From positions 1,612,001 through 1,676,000 of the forward strand of contig NZ_CP022753.1 in NCBI RefSeq assembly GCF_002263495.1: DNA of 64,000 bases. The letters run 5' to 3'. Below, piece by piece: positions 21,754 through 63,621 of this stretch. Every line of letters starts with the position of its first letter. The first letter of the stretch is position 1. Made by a program: the position numbers and the translations under genes. Under the pieces are notes generated by a model that was given only the letters and a program-made list of their open reading frames with translations, searched no databases and had not been told where the DNA came from. The stretch is from Nocardiopsis gilva YIM 90087 (GTDB lineage Bacteria; Actinomycetota; Actinomycetes; Streptosporangiales; Streptosporangiaceae).

Positions 21754-22872
21754 ATGGCCGATCGACGACGCGTGGCCAACCGGCTGCCGACCTTCCCGTG
21801 GGACCGGCTGACCGCCTACAAGGAGACCGCCGCCGCGCACCCGGACGGGATCGTCGACTTCTCGGTGGGGACGCCGGTCGACCCGGTGCCGGAGAAGGTG
21901 CGCGCGGCCCTGGCCGACACCGCCGACGCTCCGGGCTATCCGATGACCCACGGGACGGCGGCGCTGCGCGCCTCCATCGCCGACTGGCTGAGCCGTCGCC
22001 ACGGCGTCACGGTGGACCCCGCCGCCACCCTGCCACTGGTCGGCTCCAAGGAGCTGGTGGCCTGGCTGCCCACGCTCCTCGGGCTGGGCGAGGGCGACAC
22101 CGTCGTCTACCCCGAGCTGGCCTACCCCACCTACGACATCGGCATCCGGATCGCCGGGGCCACCCCCGTGGCCTCCGACGGCCTCACCGCGCTCGGTCCG
22201 GCCCGCGTGCGGCTGGTGTGGCTCAACTCCCCGGCCAACCCGACCGGCCGTGTCCTGGGCGTCGACCACCTGCGGAAGGTCGTGGAGTGGGCGCGCGAGC
22301 GGGACGTCATCGTCGCCTCCGACGAGTGCTACCTCGACCTCGGCTGGGACGACACGCGGCCCGTCTCGATCCTCCACCCCGACGTGTGCGGCGGTTCGCA
22401 CGAGGGCCTGCTGGCCGTGCACTCCCTGTCCAAGCGCTCCAACCTGGCCGGCTACCGCGCGGCGTTCCTCGCGGGCGATCCCGCCCTGGTCGAGGAGCTG
22501 CTGGCGGTCCGCAAGCACGCCGGGATGATCGTTCCCGCTCCGGTGCAGGCGGCCATGGGCGCCGCCCTCGACGACGACGCCCACGCTCGGGAGCAGAAGG
22601 AACGCTACCGCGCCCGCCGTGCCCGGCTCCGCACCGCGCTGGAGGCCGCCGGCTGGGCCATCACCCACTCCGATGCCGGGCTGTACCTGTGGGCCTCCCA
22701 CCCCGAGCACGACGCGTGGGGTTCCGTGGCGGCCCTCGCCGAGCAGGGCATCCTCGTGGCCCCCGGTGACTTCTACGGTCCCTCCGGCGACCGCCACATC
22801 CGGGTCGCGTTCACCGCCACCGACGAGCGGGTCGCCATGGGCGCCAAGCGCCTGGAGGCCATGGCGCGCTGA
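21754..22872 (+). CDS. dapC: Succinyldiaminopimelate transaminase
   Basis: 372 residues, class I/II aminotransferase fold. PLP lysine Lys227 in HSLSKRSNLAGYR; NSPANPTGRV and DECYLDL are the usual cofactor-binding motifs. It converts N-succinyl-2-amino-6-ketopimelate to N-succinyl-LL-2,6-diaminopimelate. With dapD and dapE 1.3 and 2.2 kb downstream it completes the succinylase branch to meso-DAP and lysine, split only by one minus-strand gene. AGAGGGGA ribosome-binding site upstream. Confidence 0.92.
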   Translation: MADRRRVANRLPTFPWDRLTAYKETAAAHPDGIVDFSVGTPVDPVPEKVRAALADTADAPGYPMTHGTAALRASIADWLSRRHGVTVDPAATLPLVGSKELVAWLPTLLGLGEGDTVVYPELAYPTYDIGIRIAGATPVASDGLTALGPARVRLVWLNSPANPTGRVLGVDHLRKVVEWARERDVIVASDECYLDLGWDDTRPVSILHPDVCGGSHEGLLAVHSLSKRSNLAGYRAAFLAGDPALVEELLAVRKHAGMIVPAPVQAAMGAALDDDAHAREQKERYRARRARLRTALEAAGWAITHSDAGLYLWASHPEHDAWGSVAALAEQGILVAPGDFYGPSGDRHIRVAFTATDERVAMGAKRLEAMAR

Positions 22873-22887: not shown

Positions 22888-22951
22888 CGTCGATCTCGGG
22901 GATATCGACCTCATAGTCGTCGGTATTCGGTCGATATCCCCGAGATCAACG
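22888..22951. repeat. Long palindrome, family copy 1
   Basis: Arms of 23 bases (22888-22910 and 22929-22951) pair with a single mismatch around an 18-base loop. The outer end reads CGTCGATCTCGG, one base off the CGTTGATCTCGG shared by copies at 27118 and 60133; the inner stem is unrelated to theirs. It sits between the convergent ends of dapC and the gene at 22966, so it could also terminate both. Confidence 0.85.
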
Positions 22952-22965
22952 GAGGTGCGGCGCGC

Positions 22966-23820
22966 CTACTTCAGGACCAGGGTGGCGCGCGCCGCGCCGT
23001 CGGGGACCGTGGACCAGCCGTCTTCGCCGGCCGCCGCCCGCCAGCGCTGGTCGCCGTAGGTCACCGACCTCAGGCCGTAGTCGCGGGCGTTGGCCACCGC
23101 CCACACCGCCATCGACCAGCCGATCTCGCCCGTCTGCGGGCCGTCGGCCACCGGGAGGTCGTCGGGGGCGGTGCCGAACACGCGCTCCAGCTCCGCCTTC
23201 GCCCCCGCGACGTCGCTCTTGGCACTCGTCTCCGGTTCGTACCAGCAGCTCACCGCCGGGCCCTCGGAGCCGTTGAACGCCGCGGCCATCACCCGGGACA
23301 GGTCCTCGTGCTGGTCGTAGGCGAATCCGTCGGCGCTGCGCTGGACGGCCTGCGCCGCCTCGTAGACGGGCATCTCCTGGTAGTCGGGGACCTCCTTCAG
23401 CTCCTCGTAGAACGACCGCGTGGCGAACACCTGGTCCATGATCTGGTCCGGCTCGCCCCACTCCTGCGAGGGGCGCTGCTGGAACAGGCCCAGCGAGTCG
23501 CGGTCGCCGTACTCGATGTTGATGAACTTCGACTCCTGCCACACCGTCGCGTAGGCGATGACGACCGCGTCCTCGGGCATGTCCAGGGAGAACGCCACGC
23601 CGTTGACCGTGGCGGCGTTGGCGGCCTGTTCCACGTCGATGTCGTGCGTGTCCTCGTTCCCGGTGATCGTGCAGCTCTCGGTCGGCTCGGGTTCGGCGAC
23701 CTCCAGGGGCTTCAGGGAGGTGATGGCGTAGTAACCGCCCGCGAGCAACAGGCCGCAGGTGACGGTTAGTACGGCCAGGATCTTGAAGAAGGCGGAGACT
23801 CTTCGCTGTTTTCGAGGCAC
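22966..23820 (-). CDS. Membrane-anchored lysozyme-like protein (actinobacterial family)
   Basis: 284 residues from GTG 23820: basic N-terminus PRKQRRVSAFFKI, one transmembrane anchor (about 12-35) and an extracellular domain with VWQESKFINIEYGDRDSLGL then FQQRPSQEWG, matching a widespread actinobacterial family that looks like a soluble transglycosylase/lysozyme fold. Peptidoglycan cleavage is inference. The frame is open back to GTG 23928, which would add 36 residues with CPTCGC, but an 8-bp inverted repeat ACCCACAG/CTGTGGGT (23847-23870) in that stretch and the classic anchor start favour 23820. Confidence 0.78.
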   Translation of the reverse strand: MPRKQRRVSAFFKILAVLTVTCGLLLAGGYYAITSLKPLEVAEPEPTESCTITGNEDTHDIDVEQAANAATVNGVAFSLDMPEDAVVIAYATVWQESKFINIEYGDRDSLGLFQQRPSQEWGEPDQIMDQVFATRSFYEELKEVPDYQEMPVYEAAQAVQRSADGFAYDQHEDLSRVMAAAFNGSEGPAVSCWYEPETSAKSDVAGAKAELERVFGTAPDDLPVADGPQTGEIGWSMAVWAVANARDYGLRSVTYGDQRWRAAAGEDGWSTVPDGAARATLVLK

Positions 23821-24130
23821 AGGCAGACCGTTTTGCTCATGGAGGCACCCACAGGTGGGGCACTGTGGGTCACCTCTGCTGACAGGGATTGATGGGCCCG
23901 GGAACGTGCCGCGGGGCCAGGGGGACACAACCGGGGCAGTGGCATTACACCCCGCATATTAGAGCGTGCGCGTCGCCGTGATCCTCTTTCGGCGACGCCG
24001 GGATGGCCCGACCCCTGCCTGAGCAGGCGTCCGCGCGGCGGGAGATTCGCGTCTCTCCGGTCACCCGGCGTGTCCAAACTCTGGTCGCGGGTTGGTTCTC
24101 CGGCGGCCGGACCCAGTAGGCTCGGGGGCC

Positions 24131-24967
24131 ATGACCACCGCGTTCATCAGTCCGCTGCCCCAGGAGATCGACAACCTGTGGGAGCGCCGCACCGAGCTGA
24201 CCCCCGACCACAAGGAAGCCCGCGACATCATCGTGGGCGCCATCGACGACATCGACGCCGGCAAGGCCCGCGTCGCCTTCGTCGATGAGGCGACCGACGA
24301 GGTCGTCGTGGACGAGCGCGCCAAGCGCTCGATCCTGCTCGGCTTCCGGGTCCTCGGCATGGAGGAGTCCAAGGTCGGCGACTTCTACCACCACGACCGC
24401 ATCCCGCTCAAGACCCGCTTCGACGGCGTCCGTGTCGTCCCGGGCGCCATCGCCCGCTGGGGCGCCTACCTGGCCTCCGGCGTCGTGCTGATGCCGTCCT
24501 TCACCAACATCGGCGCGTGGGTGGGCTCCGGAACCATGGTCGACACCTGGGCCACCGTGGGCTCCTGCGCGCAGGTCGGCAAGAACGTGCACCTGTCCGG
24601 CGGCGTCGGTGTCGGCGGTGTGCTGGAGCCGCCGCAGGCGGCCCCGGTCGTCATCGAGGACGACGCCTTCCTCGGCTCGCGCACCATGGTCGTCGAGGGC
24701 GCCCGCGTCCGCCGCGGGGCCAAGCTCGGCGCCGGCACGATCCTGACCTCGTCCACCCGCGTCTTCGACGCCGAGACCGGCGAGGAACTGCCCCGCGGCG
24801 AGGCCCCGGCCTGGTCGGTGTGTGTCACCGCCAACCGGGTCAAGAGCTTCCCCGGCGGCGACTTCGGCATGCCGGTCCTGCTGGTCCTCAAGCGCCTGGA
24901 GGAGGGCCAGGAGCACGACAAGCTCGCTCTGAACGACATGCTGCGCGAGCACGGCGTCAACGCCTAG
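24131..24967 (+). CDS. dapD: 2,3,4,5-tetrahydropyridine-2,6-dicarboxylate N-succinyltransferase
   Basis: 278 residues. Left-handed beta-helix hexapeptide repeats run from about residue 105 to 215, with NIGAWVGSGTMVDTWATVGS and CAQVGKNVHLSGGVGVGGVL. It succinylates tetrahydrodipicolinate, the first step of the succinylase DAP branch. The sequence matches the E. coli-type DapD (274 aa) rather than the longer, about 317-residue DapD usual in mycobacteria. ATG 24131 fits the family start; an upstream in-frame start at 24092 lacks support. Confidence 0.93.
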   Translation: MTTAFISPLPQEIDNLWERRTELTPDHKEARDIIVGAIDDIDAGKARVAFVDEATDEVVVDERAKRSILLGFRVLGMEESKVGDFYHHDRIPLKTRFDGVRVVPGAIARWGAYLASGVVLMPSFTNIGAWVGSGTMVDTWATVGSCAQVGKNVHLSGGVGVGGVLEPPQAAPVVIEDDAFLGSRTMVVEGARVRRGAKLGAGTILTSSTRVFDAETGEELPRGEAPAWSVCVTANRVKSFPGGDFGMPVLLVLKRLEEGQEHDKLALNDMLREHGVNA

Positions 24968-25024
24968 CCGACACCGACGGAACAGCGCTGACACAGCAGA
25001 CGCAAGAGCATCCCGCCGTCGGCC

Positions 25025-25059
25025 GCCCCGCCCCCGCCGTGTCCCGGCGGGGGCGGGGC
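25025..25059. terminator. Strong hairpin between dapD and dapE
   Basis: 15-bp perfect GC-only stem (25025-25039 with 25045-25059) and a 5-base loop, 58 bases after the dapD stop. It probably ends the dapD transcript, so dapE may have its own promoter close by or depend on read-through. Confidence 0.8.
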
Positions 25060-25112
25060 ACCAGGTGGTCGGCGGCCTCCCATCGGCCCCCGATCACGAA
25101 AGCGTGCCCGAC

Positions 25113-26231
25113 ATGCTGGATCTCACCGCGGACGTCCGGACCCTCACCGCCCGCATCGTCGATATCGAGTCGGTCAGCGGAGGCGAACGCGCGCTCGCCG
25201 ACGCCATCGAGCAGGCGCTCGGCGACCTGCCGCACCTCACCGTGTATCGAGACGGCGACGCGGTCGTGGCCCGTACCGACCTGGGCCGCGAGCAGCGCGT
25301 CGTGATCGCGGGCCACATCGACACCGTCCCCATCGTGGGCAACGTGCCCTCGCACGTCGAGGGCGAGCGGCTCTACGGCTGCGGGACCAGCGACATGAAG
25401 AGCGGGGTGGCGGTCCAGCTCAAGCTGGCGGCCCTGGTGCCCGAGCCGGTGCACGACGTCACCTACGTCTTCTACGACTGCGAGGAGATCGAGGCCGACC
25501 GCAACGGCCTGCGCCGCCTCGCGGCCCAGCACCCCGAGTGGCTGGAGGGCGACTTCGCCGTGCTGATGGAGCCGACCGGCGGCTTCATCGAGGGCGGCTG
25601 CCAGGGGACCATGCGCATCGAGGTGGCCGCCCGCGGCAAGCGCGCGCACAGCGCCCGCTCCTGGATGGGGCACAACGCCATCCACGAGGCCGGACGCGCC
25701 ATCGACATCCTGCGCGAGTACGCGCCGCGCCGGCCGGAGGTCGAGGGGCTCCGGTTCCACGAGGGCCTCAACGCCGTGTTCGTCTCCGGCGGCGTCGCGG
25801 GCAACGTCATCCCCGACGAGTGCGTCGTCACCGTCAACTACCGGTTCGCCCCCGACCTCAGCGCACAGGACGCCGAGCAGCACCTGCGCGAGGTGTTCGC
25901 CGACTATGACGTGCGGGTCACCGACGTGGCGCCGCCCGCCCGGCCCGGGCTCGACCACCCCGCCGCGGCGGCCTTCGTCCGCACGGTGGGCGACGGCCAG
26001 GCCCGCGCCAAGCTGGGCTGGACCGACGTGGCGCGGATGTCGGAGCTGGGGATCCCCGCGGTCAACTACGGCCCCGGTGAACCCACGCTCGCCCACACCA
26101 AGGACGAGTTCGTGGAGCTCGACGCCATCGTCGACGCGGAGAAGCGGATGGTCGGCTGGCTCACCGGGGTGGACGCCGACACGGCCGCGGCGGCGGTCGC
26201 GGACGCGATCGGCGACGTCGACAAGGGCTGA
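25113..26231 (+). CDS. dapE: Succinyl-diaminopimelate desuccinylase
   Basis: 372 residues, M20 metallopeptidase fold. Zinc ligands and catalytic residues appear in AGHIDTVP, CGTSDMKSG, DCEEIE, LMEPTGG and LAHTKDEF. It releases succinate to give LL-2,6-diaminopimelate. Start chosen at ATG 25113 with GAAAG ten bases upstream; an in-frame GTG at 25104 and a longer frame from 25065 are possible. Followed 95 bases later by a LOG-family gene, as in M. tuberculosis Rv1202-Rv1205. Confidence 0.92.
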   Translation: MLDLTADVRTLTARIVDIESVSGGERALADAIEQALGDLPHLTVYRDGDAVVARTDLGREQRVVIAGHIDTVPIVGNVPSHVEGERLYGCGTSDMKSGVAVQLKLAALVPEPVHDVTYVFYDCEEIEADRNGLRRLAAQHPEWLEGDFAVLMEPTGGFIEGGCQGTMRIEVAARGKRAHSARSWMGHNAIHEAGRAIDILREYAPRRPEVEGLRFHEGLNAVFVSGGVAGNVIPDECVVTVNYRFAPDLSAQDAEQHLREVFADYDVRVTDVAPPARPGLDHPAAAAFVRTVGDGQARAKLGWTDVARMSELGIPAVNYGPGEPTLAHTKDEFVELDAIVDAEKRMVGWLTGVDADTAAAAVADAIGDVDKG

Positions 26232-26325
26232 GCGCCACGGGCGCCACCTGATCGTTGTCTCTCCCGACGAAAACAGGTGACCTGGGATTCAGCGCGCGTG
26301 CCTGAGATCCGGATAGCGTTGCGAC

Positions 26326-27102
26326 ATGACGGAATCTCAGAAAATCCGCCGGGCGGGTCCGTTGACCTTCCACGGCAGCGCCATCCCTGAGACCACCACG
26401 GACCAGCGGCTGTTGGACCGCCGCGGGCCGGCCGAATGGGTGCACACCGACCCGTGGCGGGTCATGCGCATCCAGTCGGAGTTCGTGGAGGGGTTCGGCC
26501 TGCTGTCCGAGGTCGGGCAGGCGGTGAGCGTGTTCGGCTCGGCGCGGACGAAGCCGGACAGCCCGCACTACCAGCTCGGGGAGACGGTCGGCGGCAAGCT
26601 CGCCGAGGCGGGCTACACGGTCATCACCGGGGGCGGGCCCGGCGTGATGGAGGCCGCGAACAGGGGCGCCCAGAAGGGCGGGGGCACGTCGATCGGACTC
26701 GGCATCGAGCTCCCGTTCGAGCAGGCGCTCAACGAGTACATCGACATCGGCGTCACGTTCCGGTACTTCTTCGTGCGCAAGACGATGTTCGTGAAGTACT
26801 CGCAGGCGTTCGTGGTGATGCCGGGCGGGTTCGGCACGCTGGACGAGATGTTCGAGGCGATCACGCTGGTGCAGACCGGCAAGGTGACCCGGTTCCCGGT
26901 GGTGCTGGTCGGCACCGAGTTCTGGGGCGGGCTGCGCGACTGGATCCGGAAGAACCTGCTGGAGGAGGGGCTGATCTCCCCGGGCGACCCGGACCTGATG
27001 CACCTCACCGACGACCCCGACGAGGTCGTCGAGATCATCCGCGACGCCCACCGGAACCTGGCCCGGATGGACTTCGAGGCCGGGGAACAGGACGGGACCT
27101 AG
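26326..27102 (+). CDS. TIGR00730/LOG family nucleoside 5'-monophosphate phosphoribohydrolase
   Basis: 258 residues, Rossmann-like fold. Signature motifs ITGGGPGVMEAANRGAQKGG and VMPGGFGTLDEMFEAIT are those of LOG proteins, which release cytokinin-like bases from their ribotides. Position after dapE matches M. tuberculosis Rv1205, a characterised LOG. The first 60 residues are an extension common in actinobacterial members. Substrate in this organism is not known. Confidence 0.9.
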   Translation: MTESQKIRRAGPLTFHGSAIPETTTDQRLLDRRGPAEWVHTDPWRVMRIQSEFVEGFGLLSEVGQAVSVFGSARTKPDSPHYQLGETVGGKLAEAGYTVITGGGPGVMEAANRGAQKGGGTSIGLGIELPFEQALNEYIDIGVTFRYFFVRKTMFVKYSQAFVVMPGGFGTLDEMFEAITLVQTGKVTRFPVVLVGTEFWGGLRDWIRKNLLEEGLISPGDPDLMHLTDDPDEVVEIIRDAHRNLARMDFEAGEQDGT

Positions 27103-27117
27103 CCGCGACGCCCAGGG

Positions 27118-27193
27118 TCCCTCCGTTGATCTCGGAGATATTGGGGTGAAAATCGCTTGTGAGACCCCAATATCTCCGAGATCAACGGAGGGA
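27118..27193. repeat. Long palindrome, family copy 2
   Basis: 30-bp perfect stem (27118-27147 with 27164-27193) and a 16-base loop. It contains CGTTGATCTCGG five bases in from its outer end, as in the copies at 22888 and 60133, but the inner stem sequence differs. It lies between the convergent ends of the LOG gene and the gene at 27219. Confidence 0.9.
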
Positions 27194-27218: not shown

Positions 27219-27542
27219 TCAGGCCAGTCCGCGGCGGGCCACAGCGGGCGGGCGCGTGCCCTGGATCGAGGCGACCATGTCGAGCGCCTGCCGGGCGTCG
27301 CGCGGCCGATCGGTCGCGAAGAACCGGACGCCCAGCCAGGCGTAGACGGAGATGAGCGCGATGACCTCGGCGGCGGCCGCACCGCTGTCGTCGGCGGGCG
27401 CGCTCGCGCAGCGCACGAGCACCGGTCGGTCACCCGCGACCAGCGCGCGGATCCGGTCCACACTCGGACGGTGACCGGCGTCGACCACGCCGTTCACCAC
27501 CGCGTCGACTTCCACGACCTGCCAAGTTTGATCCGCGCCCAC
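27219..27542 (-). CDS. Orphan domain resembling the C-terminus of dihydropteroate synthase
   Basis: 107 residues from GTG 27542 (the frame is open to ATG 27635, which would overlap the divergent gene). The end, ISVYAWLGVRFFATDRPRDA then RQALDMVASIQG, resembles the last helix-strand-helix of FolP, where R-x-H-D-V normally precedes the alanine-rich helix; here the catalytic R-x-H is changed to FFATD. Most of the TIM barrel is absent. In M. tuberculosis folP2 (Rv1207) lies at this place in the gene order, so this may be a remnant or a repurposed piece. The assignment is tentative. Confidence 0.5.
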   Translation of the reverse strand: MGADQTWQVVEVDAVVNGVVDAGHRPSVDRIRALVAGDRPVLVRCASAPADDSGAAAAEVIALISVYAWLGVRFFATDRPRDARQALDMVASIQGTRPPAVARRGLA

Positions 27543-38077: not shown

Positions 38078-38122
38078 GACGATGGGGGCCGATCCGCCAC
38101 AGGCGGATCGGCCCCCATCGTC
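38078..38122. terminator. Bidirectional terminator between htrA and cytosine deaminase
   Basis: 21-bp perfect stem (38078-38098 with 38102-38122) and a 3-base loop between two convergent genes. Confidence 0.85.
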
Positions 38123-45910: not shown

Positions 45911-45948
45911 CGGAGGCCGGGCGCCCTGGTCAGGGCGCCCGGCCTCCG
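45911..45948. terminator. Bidirectional terminator after the MBL-fold gene
   Basis: 18-bp perfect stem (45911-45928 with 45931-45948) between convergent genes. Confidence 0.8.
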
Positions 45949-56551: not shown

Positions 56552-58052
56552 TCGGCGGAGTGCCACGGTTGGTCGTGGGCATCTGGTGAACTAGGAGGGG
56601 TGAGCTCATCCCCGTACCGCCTCGTGCGTCGTGTGCACCACGAGACGCCGCCCCCCACGCTGGACGAGAACCAGCGGCGCGTGGTCGTCCACAAGGGCGG
56701 CCCGCTGCTGGTCCTCGCGGGGCCGGGCACGGGGAAGACCACGACGATCGTCGAGGCGGTCGTCGACCGCATCGAGAACCGGGGTGTGGACCCGTCGCGG
56801 GTTCTGGTCCTGACCTTCAGCCGCAAGGCCGCCCAGGAACTGCGCGAACGCATCACCGCCCGGTTGCGCCGGACCACCCGCGAGCCGCTGGCGCTCACCT
56901 TCCACAGCTACGCCTACGCCCTGATCCGCCGCGAGTTCCAGCGCCAGGGGGACCTGCCGCCGCGCCTGCTGTCGGGCCCCGAGCAGCTCATGGAGGTCCG
57001 TGAGCTGCTGTCGGGCGAGGCCGACGACGGCGCGCCCATGTGGCCCGAGCGGCTGCGCCCGGCTTTGCGCACCCGGGGGTTCGCCGAGGAGCTGCGCGAC
57101 TTCCTGATGCGCGCGCAGGAGCGCGGCCTCGGCTCGGTCGACCTGGACCGGCTCGGCCGCGAGTACCGGCGCGACGACTGGGTCGCCGTCGGGGACTTCC
57201 TGGACCGCTACACCGGCCGATTCGATATCGCGCCGATGCCCACGTTCAACTACGCCGAGCTGGTCCGCGTCGCCGCGAACCTGCTCGCCGAACCCGAGGT
57301 GCAGGCCCGGGAGCGCGCGGCCCGCGAGGTCGTGTTCGTCGACGAGTACCAGGACACCGACCCCGCCCAGGAGGAGCTGCTGCGCGGGCTCGCCGGAGAC
57401 GGGCGCGACCTGGTCGTCGTGGGCGACCCGGACCAGTCCATCTACGGCTTCCGGGGCGCGGACGTGCGCGGGCTCCTGGAGTTCCCGCGGCGCTTTCCCA
57501 CCATGGCGGGTGACCCCGCCCCCGTCGTCGCCCTCCAGACCTGTCGCCGCAGCGGGGCGGCCCTACTCGCCGCGTCGCGCGGGGCCGCCCGCCGCCTGCC
57601 CGCCGCCCCGGCCCGGCGGCGGCCCGGTCAACGCCCACCGCGTCCTTGCCCCGGCCTCCGACGCTCCGGAGGGCGAGGTGCGGGTGCTCATGGCGGAGAG
57701 CCCGACGCAGGAGGCGGCCGTCATCGCCGACACGCTCCGCAGGGCGCACCTGGTCGACGGTGTCCCGTGGTCCAGGATGGCCGTCCTGGTCCGCTCGGCC
57801 ACCCGGCAGATCCCCGTGCTGCGCCGCGCGCTCGCCGCAGCCTCGGTGCCGGTGGCCGTCGGCGGCGACGAGCTGCCGCTGGCCGCCGAACCCCTGGTAC
57901 GCCCGCTGCTGCTGCTGATCCGCTGCGCGCTGTACCCCGACACCCTGGACGACGACGCCGCCCACGAGCTGATGACCAGCGCTTTCGGTGAAGCCGACAC
58001 CGTCCGGCTGCGACGCCTGAGCCGGGCGCTTCGGCGGCTCCGGATGGACACC

Positions 58053-58310
58053 GAAGCAGCGAGCCGCCGAGCGAGCGGAGGCGCCGACGCTGATGGCCGG
58101 AGGCCGAATGCTGTCGGCGGTGGAGTCGAGCGAGAAGGCGAGCGCGAGCGGGGGTTCGAAGCAGCGAGCCGCCGAGCGAGCGGAGGCGTCGGCGCTGATG
58201 GCCGGAGGCCGAGCGCTGTCGGCGGTGGAGTCGAGCGAGGAGGTGAGCGCGAGCGGGGGTACGGAGCAGCGAGCCGCCGAGCGAGCGGAGGCGTCGGCGG
58301 CGGAGCCGAG
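58053..58310 (+). repeat. 105-bp tandem repeat within adnA
   Basis: Unit 1 58053-58157, unit 2 58158-58262 and a partial unit from 58263. Units differ at a few bases only. Each encodes 35 residues containing AASRRASGG, DGRRP, AVGGGVER and GERERG. The following 120 bases degrade into similar Ala/Ser/Glu-rich sequence. It lies between helicase motifs and keeps the frame. Confidence 0.9.
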
Positions 58311-60132
58311 CGCGGCAACGACGGCGCCACGGCGAGCCCCTGGGCGAGCGAGGTCGTCGAGGCCAGCGCGCGGAACGCGGGCGGGCACAGCGAGGGCGGT
58401 GTCGACGGAGCGGACGAAGCGGAACGTCGCGGCCCCCGCCCTTCGGGAACACTGCTGGCCGAGGCCCTGCTGGACCCGCGCGAGCTGACCCTGATCGATC
58501 CGGAGGTTGCCGCCCCCGCCACCCGGGTGGCCGCCCACCTGAAGCTGGTCCGCGACCGCACCGCCGCTGGCGACAGCGCCGAGGACGTGCTGTGGGCGGT
58601 CTGGCGCGCCAGCGGGCTGGCCGACCGGCTGCTCAAGGCCAGCCAAGCCGGAGGACGGCGCGGGGCGGCGGCCGACCGCGACCTCGACTCCGTCGTCGCA
58701 CTGTTCGAGAGCGCCGCGCGCTACTGCGACCGGCTGCCGCCGGGAACGCCCGCCGGGTTCCTGGAGGACCTGGAGGCCCAGGAGATCCCCTCCGACACAC
58801 TCGCCGAACGAGCACCCGAGGGGGAATCGGTGCGGATCCTGACCGCGCACCGCTCCAAGGGGCTGGAGTGGGACCTGACCGTGGTCGCTGGTGTCCAGGA
58901 AGGGCACTGGCCCGACCTGCGGCTGCGCGGGTCGCTGCTCGGCGTGGAGCAGCTCGTCGACACGGTGACCGGATTCGCCGACAGCTCCGGGGCGGCCGTG
59001 GCGTCCAAGCTCCTCGACGAGGAGCGGCGGCTGTTCTACGTGGCCGTCACCCGGGCGCGCCGCACGCTCGTCGTCACCGCCGTGGGCGGCGAGGACACCG
59101 AGGAGCGCCCGTCACGCTTCCTCGCCGAACTCGGGGTCGGCGAGCCTGAGCGCGTGAGCACCGGGCGCCGCTGGCTCTCGCTGCCCGCGCTCGTGGCCGA
59201 CCTGCGCTCCGTGGTCACCGACCCCTCCCGCCAGGCCCCGCTGCGCCGCGCCGCCGCCGCGCACCTCGCACGGCTCGCGGCGCAGGGCGTTCGCGGCGCC
59301 GACCCGGCGGAGTGGTACGCGCTCACCCCGTTCTCCGATGACCGGCCGCTGGTGGACGAGGACAGCACGATCCGGGTCTCGCCGTCGCAGGTGGAGAAGT
59401 TCACCACCTGTCGGCTCCGCTGGCTGCTGGAGAGCGCGGCCGGTGCCTCGGCCATGGAAATGTCGTCGGCCCTCGGCAGTATCGTGCATGCGGTCGCCGT
59501 GCTCGTCGCCGAGGGAGCGAGCATGGACGACATCCGGCGCCGGATGGACGGCATCTGGTCGGAACTGGACTTCGGCGGCCTCTGGTACGCGGGCAAGGAG
59601 CGCGAGCGTGCCGACGAGATGGTGCGCAAGCTCATCTCCTGGCACGAACACAACGAGCGGGAACTCGTCGTCACCGAGGAGGGCTTCAAGGTCGAGCTGG
59701 ACGGCATCGAGATCACCGGCCGGGTGGACCGGCTGGAGCGGGACGCCGAGGGCCGGGCGGTCGTCGTCGATATCAAAACGGGCGGCGGCCGCCCCAAGGA
59801 CGACGAGCTCGCCCGCCACCCCCAGCTCGGCGTCTACCAGCTCGCGGTCCTGGAATCGGCGTTCGCCCAGTTCGGCCTGACCGCCCCGGGCGGCGCCGAG
59901 CTGGTCCAGGTCGGAAAGGCCGCCCTGAAGAACCAGGCGCGTGACCAGCGGCAGCCGCCACTGGGAGCGGATCCCGACCCCGAGTGGTCGCGGACCCTGG
60001 TGCGCGAGGTCGCCGACGGCATGTCGGGGTCGCGCTTCGACGCCACCCGTAACCAGTACTGCGACTCCTGCCCGGTCCGCTCCAGCTGCCCGCCCACGAC
60101 GAAGGAAAACGTGTCTGATCGCCCCGCCCCGG

Positions 60133-60196
60133 CGTTGATCTCGGGAAAGTGCGCCAAGAAACCGCCGGAATTTGGCGCACTTTCCCGAGATCAACG
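60133..60196. repeat. Long palindrome, family copy 3, at the adnA-adnB junction
   Basis: 25-bp perfect stem (60133-60157 with 60172-60196), 14-base loop, outer end CGTTGATCTCGG as in copies 1 and 2. It encodes the last residues of the adnA frame, ending 4 bases before its TGA, and contains a TTG that is a false start for adnB. Unlike the other copies, it lies between two genes of the same direction. Confidence 0.9.
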
Positions 60197-60237
60197 GTGA
60201 AACGGGGCCGAAAGATCAGGAGTGGGATATCGAGAGC

Positions 60238-63200
60238 GTGGACGTGACCCAGGAACTGGCCGAAGAGGCCGCGGCCTTCCCCCGCCGTGAGCTGACGCCC
60301 GCCGAACTGGCCCGGCTGCTGGGGCAGCCCGAGCCGACGGCCGAGCAGGCCGCGGTCATCTCGGCTCCGCTCGGGCCGAGCGTCGTGGTGGCCGGTGCGG
60401 GCTCAGGCAAAAGCGAGACGATGGCCGGGCGGGTGGTCTGGCTGGTCGCCAACGGACACGTGCGACCCGAACACGTCCTCGGCCTGACCTTCACCCGGAA
60501 GGCAGCCGCCGAGCTGGCCGAACGCGTCCGCAAGCGGCTCGACCAGCTGCGCGCCACCGAGCAGGTGCCCGCCGAAGTCCTCGACGGCGATCCGATGGTG
60601 TCCACGTACAACTCCTACGCCGCCCGCCTGGTCGGCGACCACGCGCTGCGCGAGGCCATCGAACCCACCGCGCGGCTCATCAGCGAGGGCCAGGCGTGGC
60701 AGCTCGCTGCCCGCATCGTGGCGGACTACGACGGGCCGATGGACGCCATCACCGTCACCCCCGGCACCGTCACCGGGCGGGTGCTGGAACTGGCCGGTGA
60801 GTTGGCCGACCACCTGCGCACCCCGGACGACGTGCGTGGTGTCGGCGAATGGATGGCCGAGCGCGCCGCGGCGCTGCCCAAGCGCCTCAAGGAGACCCGC
60901 GACCTGCTGGACACCCAGCGTCGGCGCGAGCAGCTGCTGCCGCTCGTCGAGCAGTACACCGAGGCCAAGGCGGCGCGCGAGGTGATGGACTACGGCGACC
61001 AGGTGGCGCTGGCAGCCCGCATCGCGACCCGCCACCCGGAGGTCGGGATGATCGAGCGCAGCCGCTACCGGGTGGTGCTGCTCGACGAGTACCAGGACAC
61101 CAGCCACGCCCAGCTGCTCCTGCTCCGGGCGCTCTTCGGCGACGGCCACCCGGTCACCGCCGTCGGTGACCCCTGCCAGTCGATCTACGGGTGGCGGGGG
61201 GCCAGCTCCGGCAACCTCACCGGCTTTTCCACCGACTTCCCCGAGGCCCCGGGGCGGCCGGCGCCGGTGCGCCGACTCGCCACCAGCTTCCGCAACGGCG
61301 AGCGCGTGCTGCAGGTCGCCAAGCGGGTCTCCGAACCCCTGCGTGAGGAAGCCGAGTACGTCCCCGTCCTCTACCCCGGCCCGGCGCGGCGCGGGCGCGG
61401 CACGGTGGCCTGCGGGCTGTTCGCGACCGAGACCGAGGAGGCCGCCTGGATCGCCACGACCATCGAGGCGGCGCTGCGCCAACCCGACCACCTGGCCCCC
61501 GATGGCATCACCTGGCCCGAGGGGGAAGGCGCGGCCGCGATCACGCACGGCGACGTCGCGGTCCTGTGCCGCAAGCGCTCGCAGTTCCCCGTTTTGCGGG
61601 AGGCGCTGGAGGAGCGCGGTATCCCCGTGGAGGTCGTGGGCCTCGGCGGACTCCTGACGGTTCCCGAGGTGCGCGACATCGTGGCCACCCTCCGCGTGAT
61701 CCATGACGCCAACGCGGGCAACGAACTCGCCCGGCTGCTGACCGGGCCGCGTTGGCGGATGGGGCCGCGGGATCTCGTCGCGCTCGGCGACCGTGCCGCG
61801 GAGCTCGCCAAGGAGGTCCGCCGCGACCTCAACGGATCGGCCGCGGCACCGGATGAGGTGGCTGAGGCAGAGGAAGCGGAGGAGCTGCTGCGGCGCACCG
61901 TCCTCGACGTGACCGCCGAGAGCGGCAGCCTCGTCGACGCCCTCGACGATCTCGGCCCGGCCGAGCGCTACTCGGAGACCGGCTACCGACGGCTCACCGC
62001 CCTCGCCGAGGAGCTGCGCGGGCTGCGCCGCCTGGCCACCCAGCCCCTGCCCGACCTCATCACCGAGATCGAGCGGGTGCTGGGCCTGGACATCGAGGTC
62101 GGGGCGCGGGCCGGTCGCGACCCGATGGCGGCCCGCGCCGACCTCGACGCGTTCGTCGACGCGGCCGTGCGGTTCGTCGGCAACAGCGAGGACCCCTCAC
62201 TCGGAACGTTCCTCGCCTACCTGCGCGCCGCAGAGGACGCGGAGAAGGGGCTGGACCCGGGGGAGCGGGTCGGCGGCAGCGACACCGTCAAGTTGATGAC
62301 CGTGCACGCCGCCAAGGGGCTCCAGTGGCCGCTGGTCGTCGTCCCGGGGCTGTCCGGGGGCCGCTACCCGCTGTTCCCGACCAAGCCGAAGGCCAGCGGC
62401 GGGTGGCTCACCCAGGAGCAGCAGCTGCCGTTCCCGCTGCGCGGCGACGCCGCGGGCCTGCCGCGCCTCGACGACGTCGACAAGCCCGGCATCGTCCGGT
62501 TCAAGGAGGCCGACCGCGACCGGCATCGGATGGAGGAGCGGCGGTTGGCCTACGTCGCCGTCACCCGCGCGTCCTTCGCGCTGCTGTGCACCGGCCACTG
62601 GTGGGGGCGCGCCAGCGCGAGCAAGCGTGGACCTTCGCCGTTCCTGGAGGAGATCCAGGAGACGTGCGCTGCGGGGGCGGGCCGCGTCGCGCACTGGGCT
62701 CCGCCGCCCGGTGACCACGAGACCAACCCGCAGACCGCCGAGGTGGAACCGGTGGCCTGGCCGCAGACGCCCGAGGAGTACGAGGGCGGCGCGGCGCGGC
62801 GGTATCGCGAGGTGGCCGAGGGCGCCGAACTCGTGGCCCGGGCCGCCGCTGACGGTCACGCTGAGGGCCGGAGATGGCTGGAGACGCTGGAGCGCGCCGA
62901 GATGCCCGCGGCGATGCGGCGCCGACTGGACGGGTGGAGCCGCGACACCGAGCTGCTGCTGGCCCACCGCGAGGCCGAGGACCGCCCCGAGGACGGTGCG
63001 ATCCCGGTGGAGCTCCCGGCCCACCTGTCGGTGTCGTCGCTGGTGTCGTTGGCGCGCGACCCCGCGACGCTGGCCCGGCAGATCCGCCGCCCCCTGCCGC
63101 GTCCCCCTGCCCCGCACACCCGGCGCGGCACCGCCTTCCACACCTGGCTGGAGCAGCGGTTCGGCCAGCAGAGCCTGCTGGTGCCGGACGAGCTGCCCGG

Positions 63201-63621
63201 TGCGGCCGACGAGACGGCCGTCGAGGTGGACGGCGACCTCGCGGAGCTGCAACGCCGCTTCGAGGAGGGCGAGTGGGGCGGGCGCACCCCGCTGGACGTG
63301 GAGGTGCCCTTCGAGACGATCATCGGTGACCGCCTCATCCGGGGGCGCATGGACGCGGTGTTCAACGACCGCGACGACGGCCACTACGACGTCGTGGACT
63401 GGAAGACCGGCCGACCGCCGGGCAACGAGCGCGAGCGCGCGGCGGTGGCCGTGCAGTTGGCGGCCTATCGCATCGCCTGGGCGGAGCTCGCGGGGGTTCC
63501 CCTGGCCGACGTCCGCGCGGCCTTCCACTACGTGCGCGCGGGGGAGACGATCCGACCGGCCGACCTGCTCGACGCCGATGGGCTGGCGGCCCTGATCGAG
63601 GGGCTGCCGGTGGCCGACTGA
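60238..63621 (+). CDS. adnB: AdnB helicase-nuclease subunit
   Basis: 1127 residues from GTG 60238 (VDVTQELAEEAAAFPRRELT). UvrD-like motor: VVVAGAGSGKSETMAGRVVW, LLDEYQDTSHAQ, VGDPCQSIYGWRGASSGNL, LMTVHAAKGLQWPLVVVPGL, RRLAYVAVTRASFALL. C-terminal RecB-type nuclease with GRMDAVFNDRD and YDVVDWKTGRPPGN. It is the lead motor of the heterodimer in mycobacteria. The frame is open upstream to TTG 60172, but that lies inside a palindrome and has no ribosome-binding site; AGGAG at 60218 is 15 bases from the GTG, so the exact start is uncertain. Confidence 0.93.
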   Translation: MDVTQELAEEAAAFPRRELTPAELARLLGQPEPTAEQAAVISAPLGPSVVVAGAGSGKSETMAGRVVWLVANGHVRPEHVLGLTFTRKAAAELAERVRKRLDQLRATEQVPAEVLDGDPMVSTYNSYAARLVGDHALREAIEPTARLISEGQAWQLAARIVADYDGPMDAITVTPGTVTGRVLELAGELADHLRTPDDVRGVGEWMAERAAALPKRLKETRDLLDTQRRREQLLPLVEQYTEAKAAREVMDYGDQVALAARIATRHPEVGMIERSRYRVVLLDEYQDTSHAQLLLLRALFGDGHPVTAVGDPCQSIYGWRGASSGNLTGFSTDFPEAPGRPAPVRRLATSFRNGERVLQVAKRVSEPLREEAEYVPVLYPGPARRGRGTVACGLFATETEEAAWIATTIEAALRQPDHLAPDGITWPEGEGAAAITHGDVAVLCRKRSQFPVLREALEERGIPVEVVGLGGLLTVPEVRDIVATLRVIHDANAGNELARLLTGPRWRMGPRDLVALGDRAAELAKEVRRDLNGSAAAPDEVAEAEEAEELLRRTVLDVTAESGSLVDALDDLGPAERYSETGYRRLTALAEELRGLRRLATQPLPDLITEIERVLGLDIEVGARAGRDPMAARADLDAFVDAAVRFVGNSEDPSLGTFLAYLRAAEDAEKGLDPGERVGGSDTVKLMTVHAAKGLQWPLVVVPGLSGGRYPLFPTKPKASGGWLTQEQQLPFPLRGDAAGLPRLDDVDKPGIVRFKEADRDRHRMEERRLAYVAVTRASFALLCTGHWWGRASASKRGPSPFLEEIQETCAAGAGRVAHWAPPPGDHETNPQTAEVEPVAWPQTPEEYEGGAARRYREVAEGAELVARAAADGHAEGRRWLETLERAEMPAAMRRRLDGWSRDTELLLAHREAEDRPEDGAIPVELPAHLSVSSLVSLARDPATLARQIRRPLPRPPAPHTRRGTAFHTWLEQRFGQQSLLVPDELPGAADETAVEVDGDLAELQRRFEEGEWGGRTPLDVEVPFETIIGDRLIRGRMDAVFNDRDDGHYDVVDWKTGRPPGNERERAAVAVQLAAYRIAWAELAGVPLADVRAAFHYVRAGETIRPADLLDADGLAALIEGLPVAD

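Follow-up and report, generated by a model that had tools for sequence, protein, structure and literature searches.

Three long palindromes lie in the 64,000-nucleotide stretch of the Nocardiopsis gilva YIM 90087 genome analyzed here (contig NZ_CP022753.1, positions 1,612,001 to 1,676,000; hereafter the window), two of them between convergent genes and the third at the 3′ end of an open reading frame (ORF) followed by a co-directional gene. An earlier note on this DNA had proposed that they form a family with one shared outer end, and its positions, arm lengths and single mismatch were confirmed: copy 1 has 23-bp arms with one outer T/C mismatch (GTCGATC/GATCAAC), copy 2 has perfect 30-bp arms, lengthened outward by CCCTCC/GGAGGG, and copy 3 has perfect 25-bp arms. 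All three are members of a dispersed family of about 150 copies of a 62-base hairpin, with relatives in kindred genera.

Analysis of the single-contig host genome of 6,142,152 bp for the end followed by its reverse complement, GTTGATCTCGG-N-CCGAGATCAAC, revealed 143 exact pairs, against none for a reversed control; trimming the ends by one base gave 146 pairs. The end TTGATCTCGG was counted 184+165 times in the genome, and 292 of those arms make up the 146 pairs, so that doublets are far commoner than single ends. The family is real, its copies having common ends and variable stems that match within each copy, and the possibility raised in the note that the 12-mer occurs at random frequency, with only these three hairpins carrying it, does not apply. 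Within the window, CGTTGATCTCGG with up to two mismatches has 29 matches against 9.0 expected, a number reached by none of 100 shuffles, and each of its five exact occurrences is a palindrome arm. When folded as RNA, copies 1, 2 and 3 are far more stable than 200 shuffles of each (z of -8.6, -11.0 and -10.3).

Table 1. Palindromes, neighboring genes and two further hairpins, in window positions; genes are those of our own gene caller.
Feature	Positions	Strand	Remarks
Palindrome copy 1	22888..22951		62-bp core 22889-22950; type B stem GGATATCGACC
Palindrome copy 2	27118..27193		62-bp core 27125-27186; type A stem AGATATTGGGGT
Palindrome copy 3	60133..60196		62-bp core 60134-60195; type C stem GAAAGTGCGCCAA
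Gene	21772..22872	+	ends 15 bp ahead of copy 1
Convergent gene	22966..23820	-	ends 14 bp past copy 1
Gene	26326..27102	+	ends 15 bp ahead of the extended arm of copy 2
Weakly called convergent gene	27219..27461	-	beyond copy 2; score 11
ORF	57510..60200	+	last residues ALISGKCAKKPPEFGALSRDQR-stop encoded by copy 3
Co-directional gene	60238..63621	+	downstream of copy 3; start as called
Ordinary hairpin	38078-38122		short loop, perfect, 21 bp
Ordinary hairpin	45911-45948		short loop, perfect, 18 bp

Copy 3 is located within the 3′ end of its ORF, and its insertion seems to have altered the end of the encoded protein. Since the palindrome supplies the last residues, a terminator at this place would be followed after about 41 bp by the called start of the next co-directional gene. 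Close to its C-terminus the same protein carries a cysteine motif, YCDSCPVRSSCP, with the tail read from copy 3. The two ordinary hairpins of the window form a contrast to the family.

Conserved ends, variable stems and taxonomic spread

The anatomy of the family was derived from 1.2 Mb each of the host and its congener G021. Loosely defined matches numbered 67 in the host and 65 in G021, of which 48 and 50 were kept as family members after removal of matches within genes, chance-like matches and a second palindrome type. Exactly 62 bp was the length of 47 of the 67 host matches, the other 20 being one 61-bp family copy, chance-like matches and another repeat family. Across the 91 copies of 62 bp from both genomes, positions 1-11 are mostly near-invariant (with T at position 3 in 89%) and positions 12-23 are variable. 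At the variable positions, arms of one copy match each other far better than arms of different copies do (z 4.6 to 11.2); outward, copy-specific sequence keeps pairing to about position -6 (z 1.6 to 6.2). In a gap-free alignment of 32 rows, 31 of them distinct, 93.3% of the positions in the 24-pair stem are paired (78.2% after shuffling), two-sided change occurs at 15 of the 24 pairs, and the covariation score of 0.417 (0.149 when shuffled) is reached by none of 500 shuffles. The loop, of roughly 8-16 nt, bears an off-centre YCG (C in 85 and G in 87 of the 91 copies after orienting, values inflated because the orientation was set on the same motif). The GATC centres lie 52 bp apart, about five turns.

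The variable stems fall into a small number of types. The 47 host copies divide into 21 of type B, 17 of type A, 6 of type C and 3 of type D, and those of G021 into 27 of type A, 8 of type B, 6 of type D and 3 without a type. The window copies, whose inner stems were earlier described as unrelated, recur as types B, A and C, and the inner stems of copies 1 and 2, placed in register (GGATATCGACC and AGATATTGGGG), are alike at 6 of 11 positions. Rather than new stems captured by each copy, as the note had suggested, a few dispersed types are thus found.

Set aside from the family was the second palindrome type (GATGATCAYGG...; GATGATCAYGGGAATTC...), which is part of larger repeats, non-coding and bounded by inverted ends some 100 bp long. 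Its places in the host genome are ~1398690-1399512 and 1693042-1693696, outside the window, and near 1711040, 1905537 and 2026378; a family palindrome lies 130-175 bp from three of them. A stretch of about 166 bp of the host repeat (1399247-1399412) has eight near-full copies of 86-90% identity, plus partial ones, in 1.2 Mb of G021. The sole other match of this imperfectly palindromic stretch in the host's 1.2 Mb is its own reverse complement (71%).

The search of relatives that the note had advised found exact copies in 7 of 250 genomes of the taxonomic family and in two of 68 genera: the host's own, with the host and G021 (90 copies), and a second one, called Nocardiopsis in the counts below, with G158 (190), G123 (63), G008 (50), G101 (8) and G142 (1). 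By inference G158 is Nocardiopsis endophytica, G008 N. suaedae, G123 N. halophila and G142 N. chromatogenes. A covariance model built from 32 copies, whose counts are per strand and lower bounds, detected relatives in 13 of 73 genomes, representing 11 of 68 genera, with two of these genomes (G030 and G052) included on one weak match each. At an E-value of 0.001 it matched all 11 chosen genomes, including G073, which has no exact copy. Most of the 14 readable relatives in other genera retain the 62-bp frame, with GATCT close to the ends, a few of the 14 (e.g., L382) being weak; they differ in ends and stems, as in GCTGATCTTGACG, GGTGATCTCGG and GCCGATCTTGAGG. Outside the family, none of the 14 pattern matches among the 120 stretches listed has the 62-bp form, and 1 to 6 of their 11 inner positions are paired, about the chance level. 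Copy 2 had no match in phage and plasmid collections, and an Rfam scan of the window returned nothing at gathering thresholds. No description of the family was found in the excerpted literature on Nocardiopsis, on actinobacterial intergenic palindromic repeats or on the 11-mer.

Seven of the retrieved copies are at most about 90 bp from where a contig begins (L069, L070, L074 and L087) or stops (L075, L119 and L129). Short-read assemblies may break at such palindromes, which would leave the copy counts of drafts low.

Placement at gene ends and turnover between species

Gene contexts were assigned with our own simple caller, whose coverage of 0.75-0.76 leaves some contexts wrong. The 62-bp copies of the host lie in called gaps in 45 of 47 cases (26 convergent, 19 co-directional and none divergent, where 12.7 were expected), and 36 of these 45 stand at most 30 bp from a stop codon, against 4.6 by random placement. 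All 44 copies of G021 lie in gaps (22 convergent, 20 co-directional and 2 divergent, with 12.6 expected for the last), 25 of them at most 30 bp from a stop codon against 4.9 expected. At Nocardiopsis loci, 86 copies comprised 40 convergent, 26 co-directional, 4 divergent, 1 in-gene and 15 not classified. Convergent and co-directional sites are thus both present, as the earlier note had observed in arguing that termination alone does not explain the placement; yet both adjoin stop codons, which fits a role at 3′ ends.

Syntenic junctions, whose comparison the note had also recommended, revealed copies present or absent between close species. The junctions of 41 of the 48 host copies are collinear in G021, with a palindrome in both species at 14 and none in G021 at 27; by eye, 7 of the latter show a variant or one-arm remnant. 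In the reverse direction, 15 of the 50 G021 copies were matched, 25 were not and 10 were non-collinear. The G021 junctions matching the three window sites hold no palindrome. At the 14 shared junctions, the same stem type occurs at only 2, one of them with the loop reversed, and the mean arm identity of 5.8 of 12 lies below nearly all of 5000 permutations (7.4).

A closer comparison was obtained between N. endophytica and N. suaedae. From 30 N. endophytica flanks prepared, 27 were searched: 16 mapped in N. suaedae, where flank identity is 79-98% and mostly some 90-97%, 10 yielded no usable junction and one fell in an abundant repeat. The last, the L100 flank, is a repeat of about 130 bp with more than 30 N. 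suaedae matches (L329-L331, L333-L343 and others), often in short arrays. A scan of the N. suaedae gaps detected a family palindrome at 4 of the 16 junctions, of the same type at L094, of another type at L124 and L112, and across a small gene at L121. The other 12 gaps were without one, five of the empty gaps being just 8-22 bp long; by eye, L127 is a decayed copy and L102 a half remnant. Seven N. endophytica junctions were followed in G008, G142 and G123. Six of them (L086, L093, L106, L113, L115 and L120) were palindrome-free over the whole gap in all three relatives, which points to gain in N. endophytica, and the palindrome of the seventh, L094, is common to G008 only. Among the followed junctions, two hold a variant 62-bp palindrome in G073 and one a 60-bp variant in G101. 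Several N. endophytica copies (L092, L101, L102, L123-L125 and L127) are seen by eye to lie in composite repeats, where sequence resembling AGAGCCCGCGCGGACAGGCGGG, often inverted, adjoins them on one side or both.

Individual pairs of copies revealed how orthologous places may differ. L103 in N. suaedae and L182 in N. endophytica differ both in stem and in the sequence directly beside the palindrome, within surroundings 94-96% identical, and the right end is apparently shifted by about 12 bp. The pair L076/L090 of the same two species has the same stems and flanks 97-100% identical, with the 14-base loop exactly inverted; the loop orientation is kept in the same-type pairs L149/L160, L118/L148 and L094/L325. 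Stem types that differ by junction, an inverted loop and the gain and loss of sites bear out the part of the earlier note that called for a mechanism beyond plain descent.

Comparison with known systems and search for a transposase

The closest known likeness is to REPINs, hairpin-forming doublets of repetitive extragenic palindromic (REP) sequences described in Pseudomonas, which carry a pair of conserved inverted ends set a fixed distance apart and a spacer in which length and pairing matter and compensatory changes are common (PMC3116915, in excerpt). That REP copies share their whole stem, as the note assumed, is therefore untrue of REPINs, whose pairing spacer is variable (same excerpt). 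The family resembles them in its fixed-distance inverted ends, its less conserved, compensating spacer, its many extragenic copies, its predominance of doublets and its probable non-autonomous spread, and differs in lacking a GTAG tag and any REP-associated tyrosine transposase (RAYT) that could be found, and in its phylum. Its ends are CGTTGATCTCGG, with no GTAG or similar tag in the consensus, and its arm is not a REP with a stem of its own of at least 5 bp. It lies sharply at stop codons, whereas according to the excerpt REP doublets are scattered at random through extragenic space. GTAG- and CGTC-tagged REPs have stems of 5-13 or 8-9 bp (CGTC 8-9); the family shares with them short palindromes, stem subsets and frequent unlike dimers, and the CGTC class is without a dedicated transposase (PMC3733652, in excerpt). 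The terms Nocardiopsis, Streptomyces and actinobacteri- are absent from the main text of that work.

A search for PF01797 (Y1) gave matches in six of eight genomes: two in the host, one each in G021 and G158, and further ones in G008 and G142 (partial) and G123. None of the seven Y1 loci carries an exact family palindrome, and G101 and G073 have no PF01797 match though both carry family copies. A stand-alone Y1 gene of the RAYT kind was rejected at the four loci examined in the host, G021 and G158, where TnpB-like ORFs lie beside the Y1 gene (Pfam). The Y1/TnpA-REP-like transposase suggested in the note was thus sought without a RAYT being found. Because neither a RAYT nor the tag was found, we describe the family as REPIN-like and do not file it as REPIN. 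Shared ends with free stems are already named in REPIN work; the scale, the exact length, the placement at stop codons and the lacking RAYT are notable.

Miniature inverted-repeat transposable elements (MITEs) are likewise short, dispersed, non-coding and bounded by inverted repeats, but no target duplication was seen in the family, and no enclosing pair that would mark a parent transposon with the same ends was noticed in 1.2 Mb each of the host and G021. Integron attC sites, with their GTTRRRY/RYYYAAC core, have conserved ends, a variable structural stem and an off-centre asymmetry, as does the family; the family's GTTGATC has T at an R position, and no cassette arrangement was noticed. Bidirectional intrinsic terminators resemble it in placing a hairpin right behind stop codons, often between convergent genes, and differ from it with regard to its loop of about 8-16 nt, missing U-tract, fixed length, lack of G.U bias and turnover at orthologous sites. 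Replication template switching homogenizes the arms of inverted repeats and inverts their spacers (PMC8604942 and PMC8794818, in excerpt), and the exact loop inversion of L076/L090 is like its products (PMC8604942, in excerpt). Such products explain the modification of copies, not the dispersal of a family.

Origin and role of the palindromes

The family is probably one of non-autonomous, REPIN-like mobile DNA hairpins kept at gene 3′ ends. In favor of this are the constant 62-bp length, the conserved ends with GATC always at the same positions, the off-centre YCG of the loop, inner stems that vary as long as both arms match, the many scattered copies of few stem types, the variable occupancy among close species and the sites beside stop codons. 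Copies would spread as folded single strands recognized in trans by an enzyme through their shape, ends and loop, and would be retained where a strong hairpin after the stop codon is harmless or useful, by bidirectional termination or 3′-end protection. The predicted role is perhaps transcription termination in both directions. Different stems at one junction would arise mainly by repeated insertion and loss at favored 3′ ends, and template switching during replication would sometimes invert the loop and may repair arms.

Several observations weigh against this reading. By eye, no target-site duplication was visible at 8 aligned junctions, 7 of them without a palindrome in the relative, nor was a clean, element-only empty site seen at aligned junctions; gained stretches are of about 80-100 bp, one of 178 bp, with unalignable edges. 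We thus infer insertion, and deletion in the relatives is possible for each site. About half of the collinear host junctions are shared with G021 or hold a remnant (14 plus 7 by eye, of 41), which is compatible with ancestral sites. No transposase is tied to the family, and loop inversion at near-identical flanks is limited to L076/L090. The terminator role is weakened by the absence of a U-tract, U never exceeding about 10% at any of 8 downstream positions (91 copies, both directions); short-loop hairpins with T tails occur among the other strong hairpins of the region. Unlike arms kept together argue against steady repair of arms: the two commonest arm classes, ACGCTA and CCCCTA, form 29 unlike pairs against 7 and 2 alike ones, in 38 of 130 distinct copies (122 of Nocardiopsis and 8 of the host or G021), the other 92 holding other arms. 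Copying from one arm to the other, a mechanism offered in the earlier note, is accordingly not the rule in Nocardiopsis.

It is unlikely that the palindromes are plain bidirectional terminators inherited with their genes, with an RNA helix under compensatory selection and common ends serving as an RNA-protein contact. Such terminators would account for the 3′-end placement, the near absence from divergent gaps and the very stable RNA hairpins. Convergent junctions with a palindrome seldom hold another hairpin of at least 10 bp (6 of 46, against 57 of 160 without), a biased test of little weight because the remainder of palindrome junctions is split into short pieces, and by eye ordinary GC-rich hairpins replace the palindrome at some orthologous junctions. 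Selection on RNA, however, predicts an excess of G.U over A.C mismatches. In transcript sense, co-directional copies show 22 G.U and 16 A.C in the host and G021 (pairs 1-24), and 12 and 16 in Nocardiopsis (pairs 12-23), together 34:32, a modest test since the cells are not independent. The loop motif lies with or against transcription without bias (16:20). From these two balances and the missing U-tract, arm matching is most plausibly taken as a trait of the DNA hairpin, and the arms look to be paired at the DNA level rather than as an RNA helix. Inherited terminators also leave aside the exact 62-bp length and the stem types, which are not inherited at orthologous junctions.

Ancestral sites at which recombination or gene conversion via the shared ends exchanged the stem for that of another, dispersed copy would explain why the 14 matched junctions and the 7 seen by eye exceed the roughly estimated 12% for random placement among eligible gene ends. 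We regard this as quite improbable: homologous recombination normally needs more than the 11-17 bp of the shared ends, stems at orthologous junctions resemble each other less than expected by chance, and at L103/L182 the flank just outside the palindrome differs and the right end is shifted, as separate insertions would leave them. Sites read as duplex by a DNA-organizing protein and spread as a MITE would suit the fixed length and the mostly fixed GATC places, in other genera too, but a reader of double strands needs no complementary inner stem, and complementarity is strongly kept, which makes this very improbable. Least credible, and largely refuted as a sole cause, is a local, non-mobile origin by template switching at 3′ ends. 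It would suit the exact spacer inversion of L076/L090, the copy-specific outward pairing and the known homogenization of arms and inversion of spacers (PMC8604942 and PMC8794818, in excerpt), whereas a local origin cannot provide about 150 places with identical ends, length and stem types, and mismatched arm pairs persist through amplification.

A more specific form of the preferred mobile-hairpin reading, which we put forward as a tentative and rather doubtful one, is a RAYT-independent REPIN class special to Nocardiopsaceae, in which an enzyme acting on single-strand hairpins would read the shape, the 62-nt length, the GATC ends and the off-centre CG of the loop, and copies would be placed behind stop codons. 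If so, the genome would gain and exchange two-way terminators that are portable and almost unconstrained in their stem sequence.

These hairpins carry REPIN-like biology into a family of high-GC actinobacteria, with no RAYT found. They would be moved by another enzyme or spread without a dedicated one, both of which are testable. Two-sided covariation in a hairpin, as seen here, need not imply an RNA function. In the natural series formed by shared junctions with different stems, an inverted loop and copies gained between close species, the effects of template switching, of insertion and of selection acting on DNA hairpins can be distinguished.

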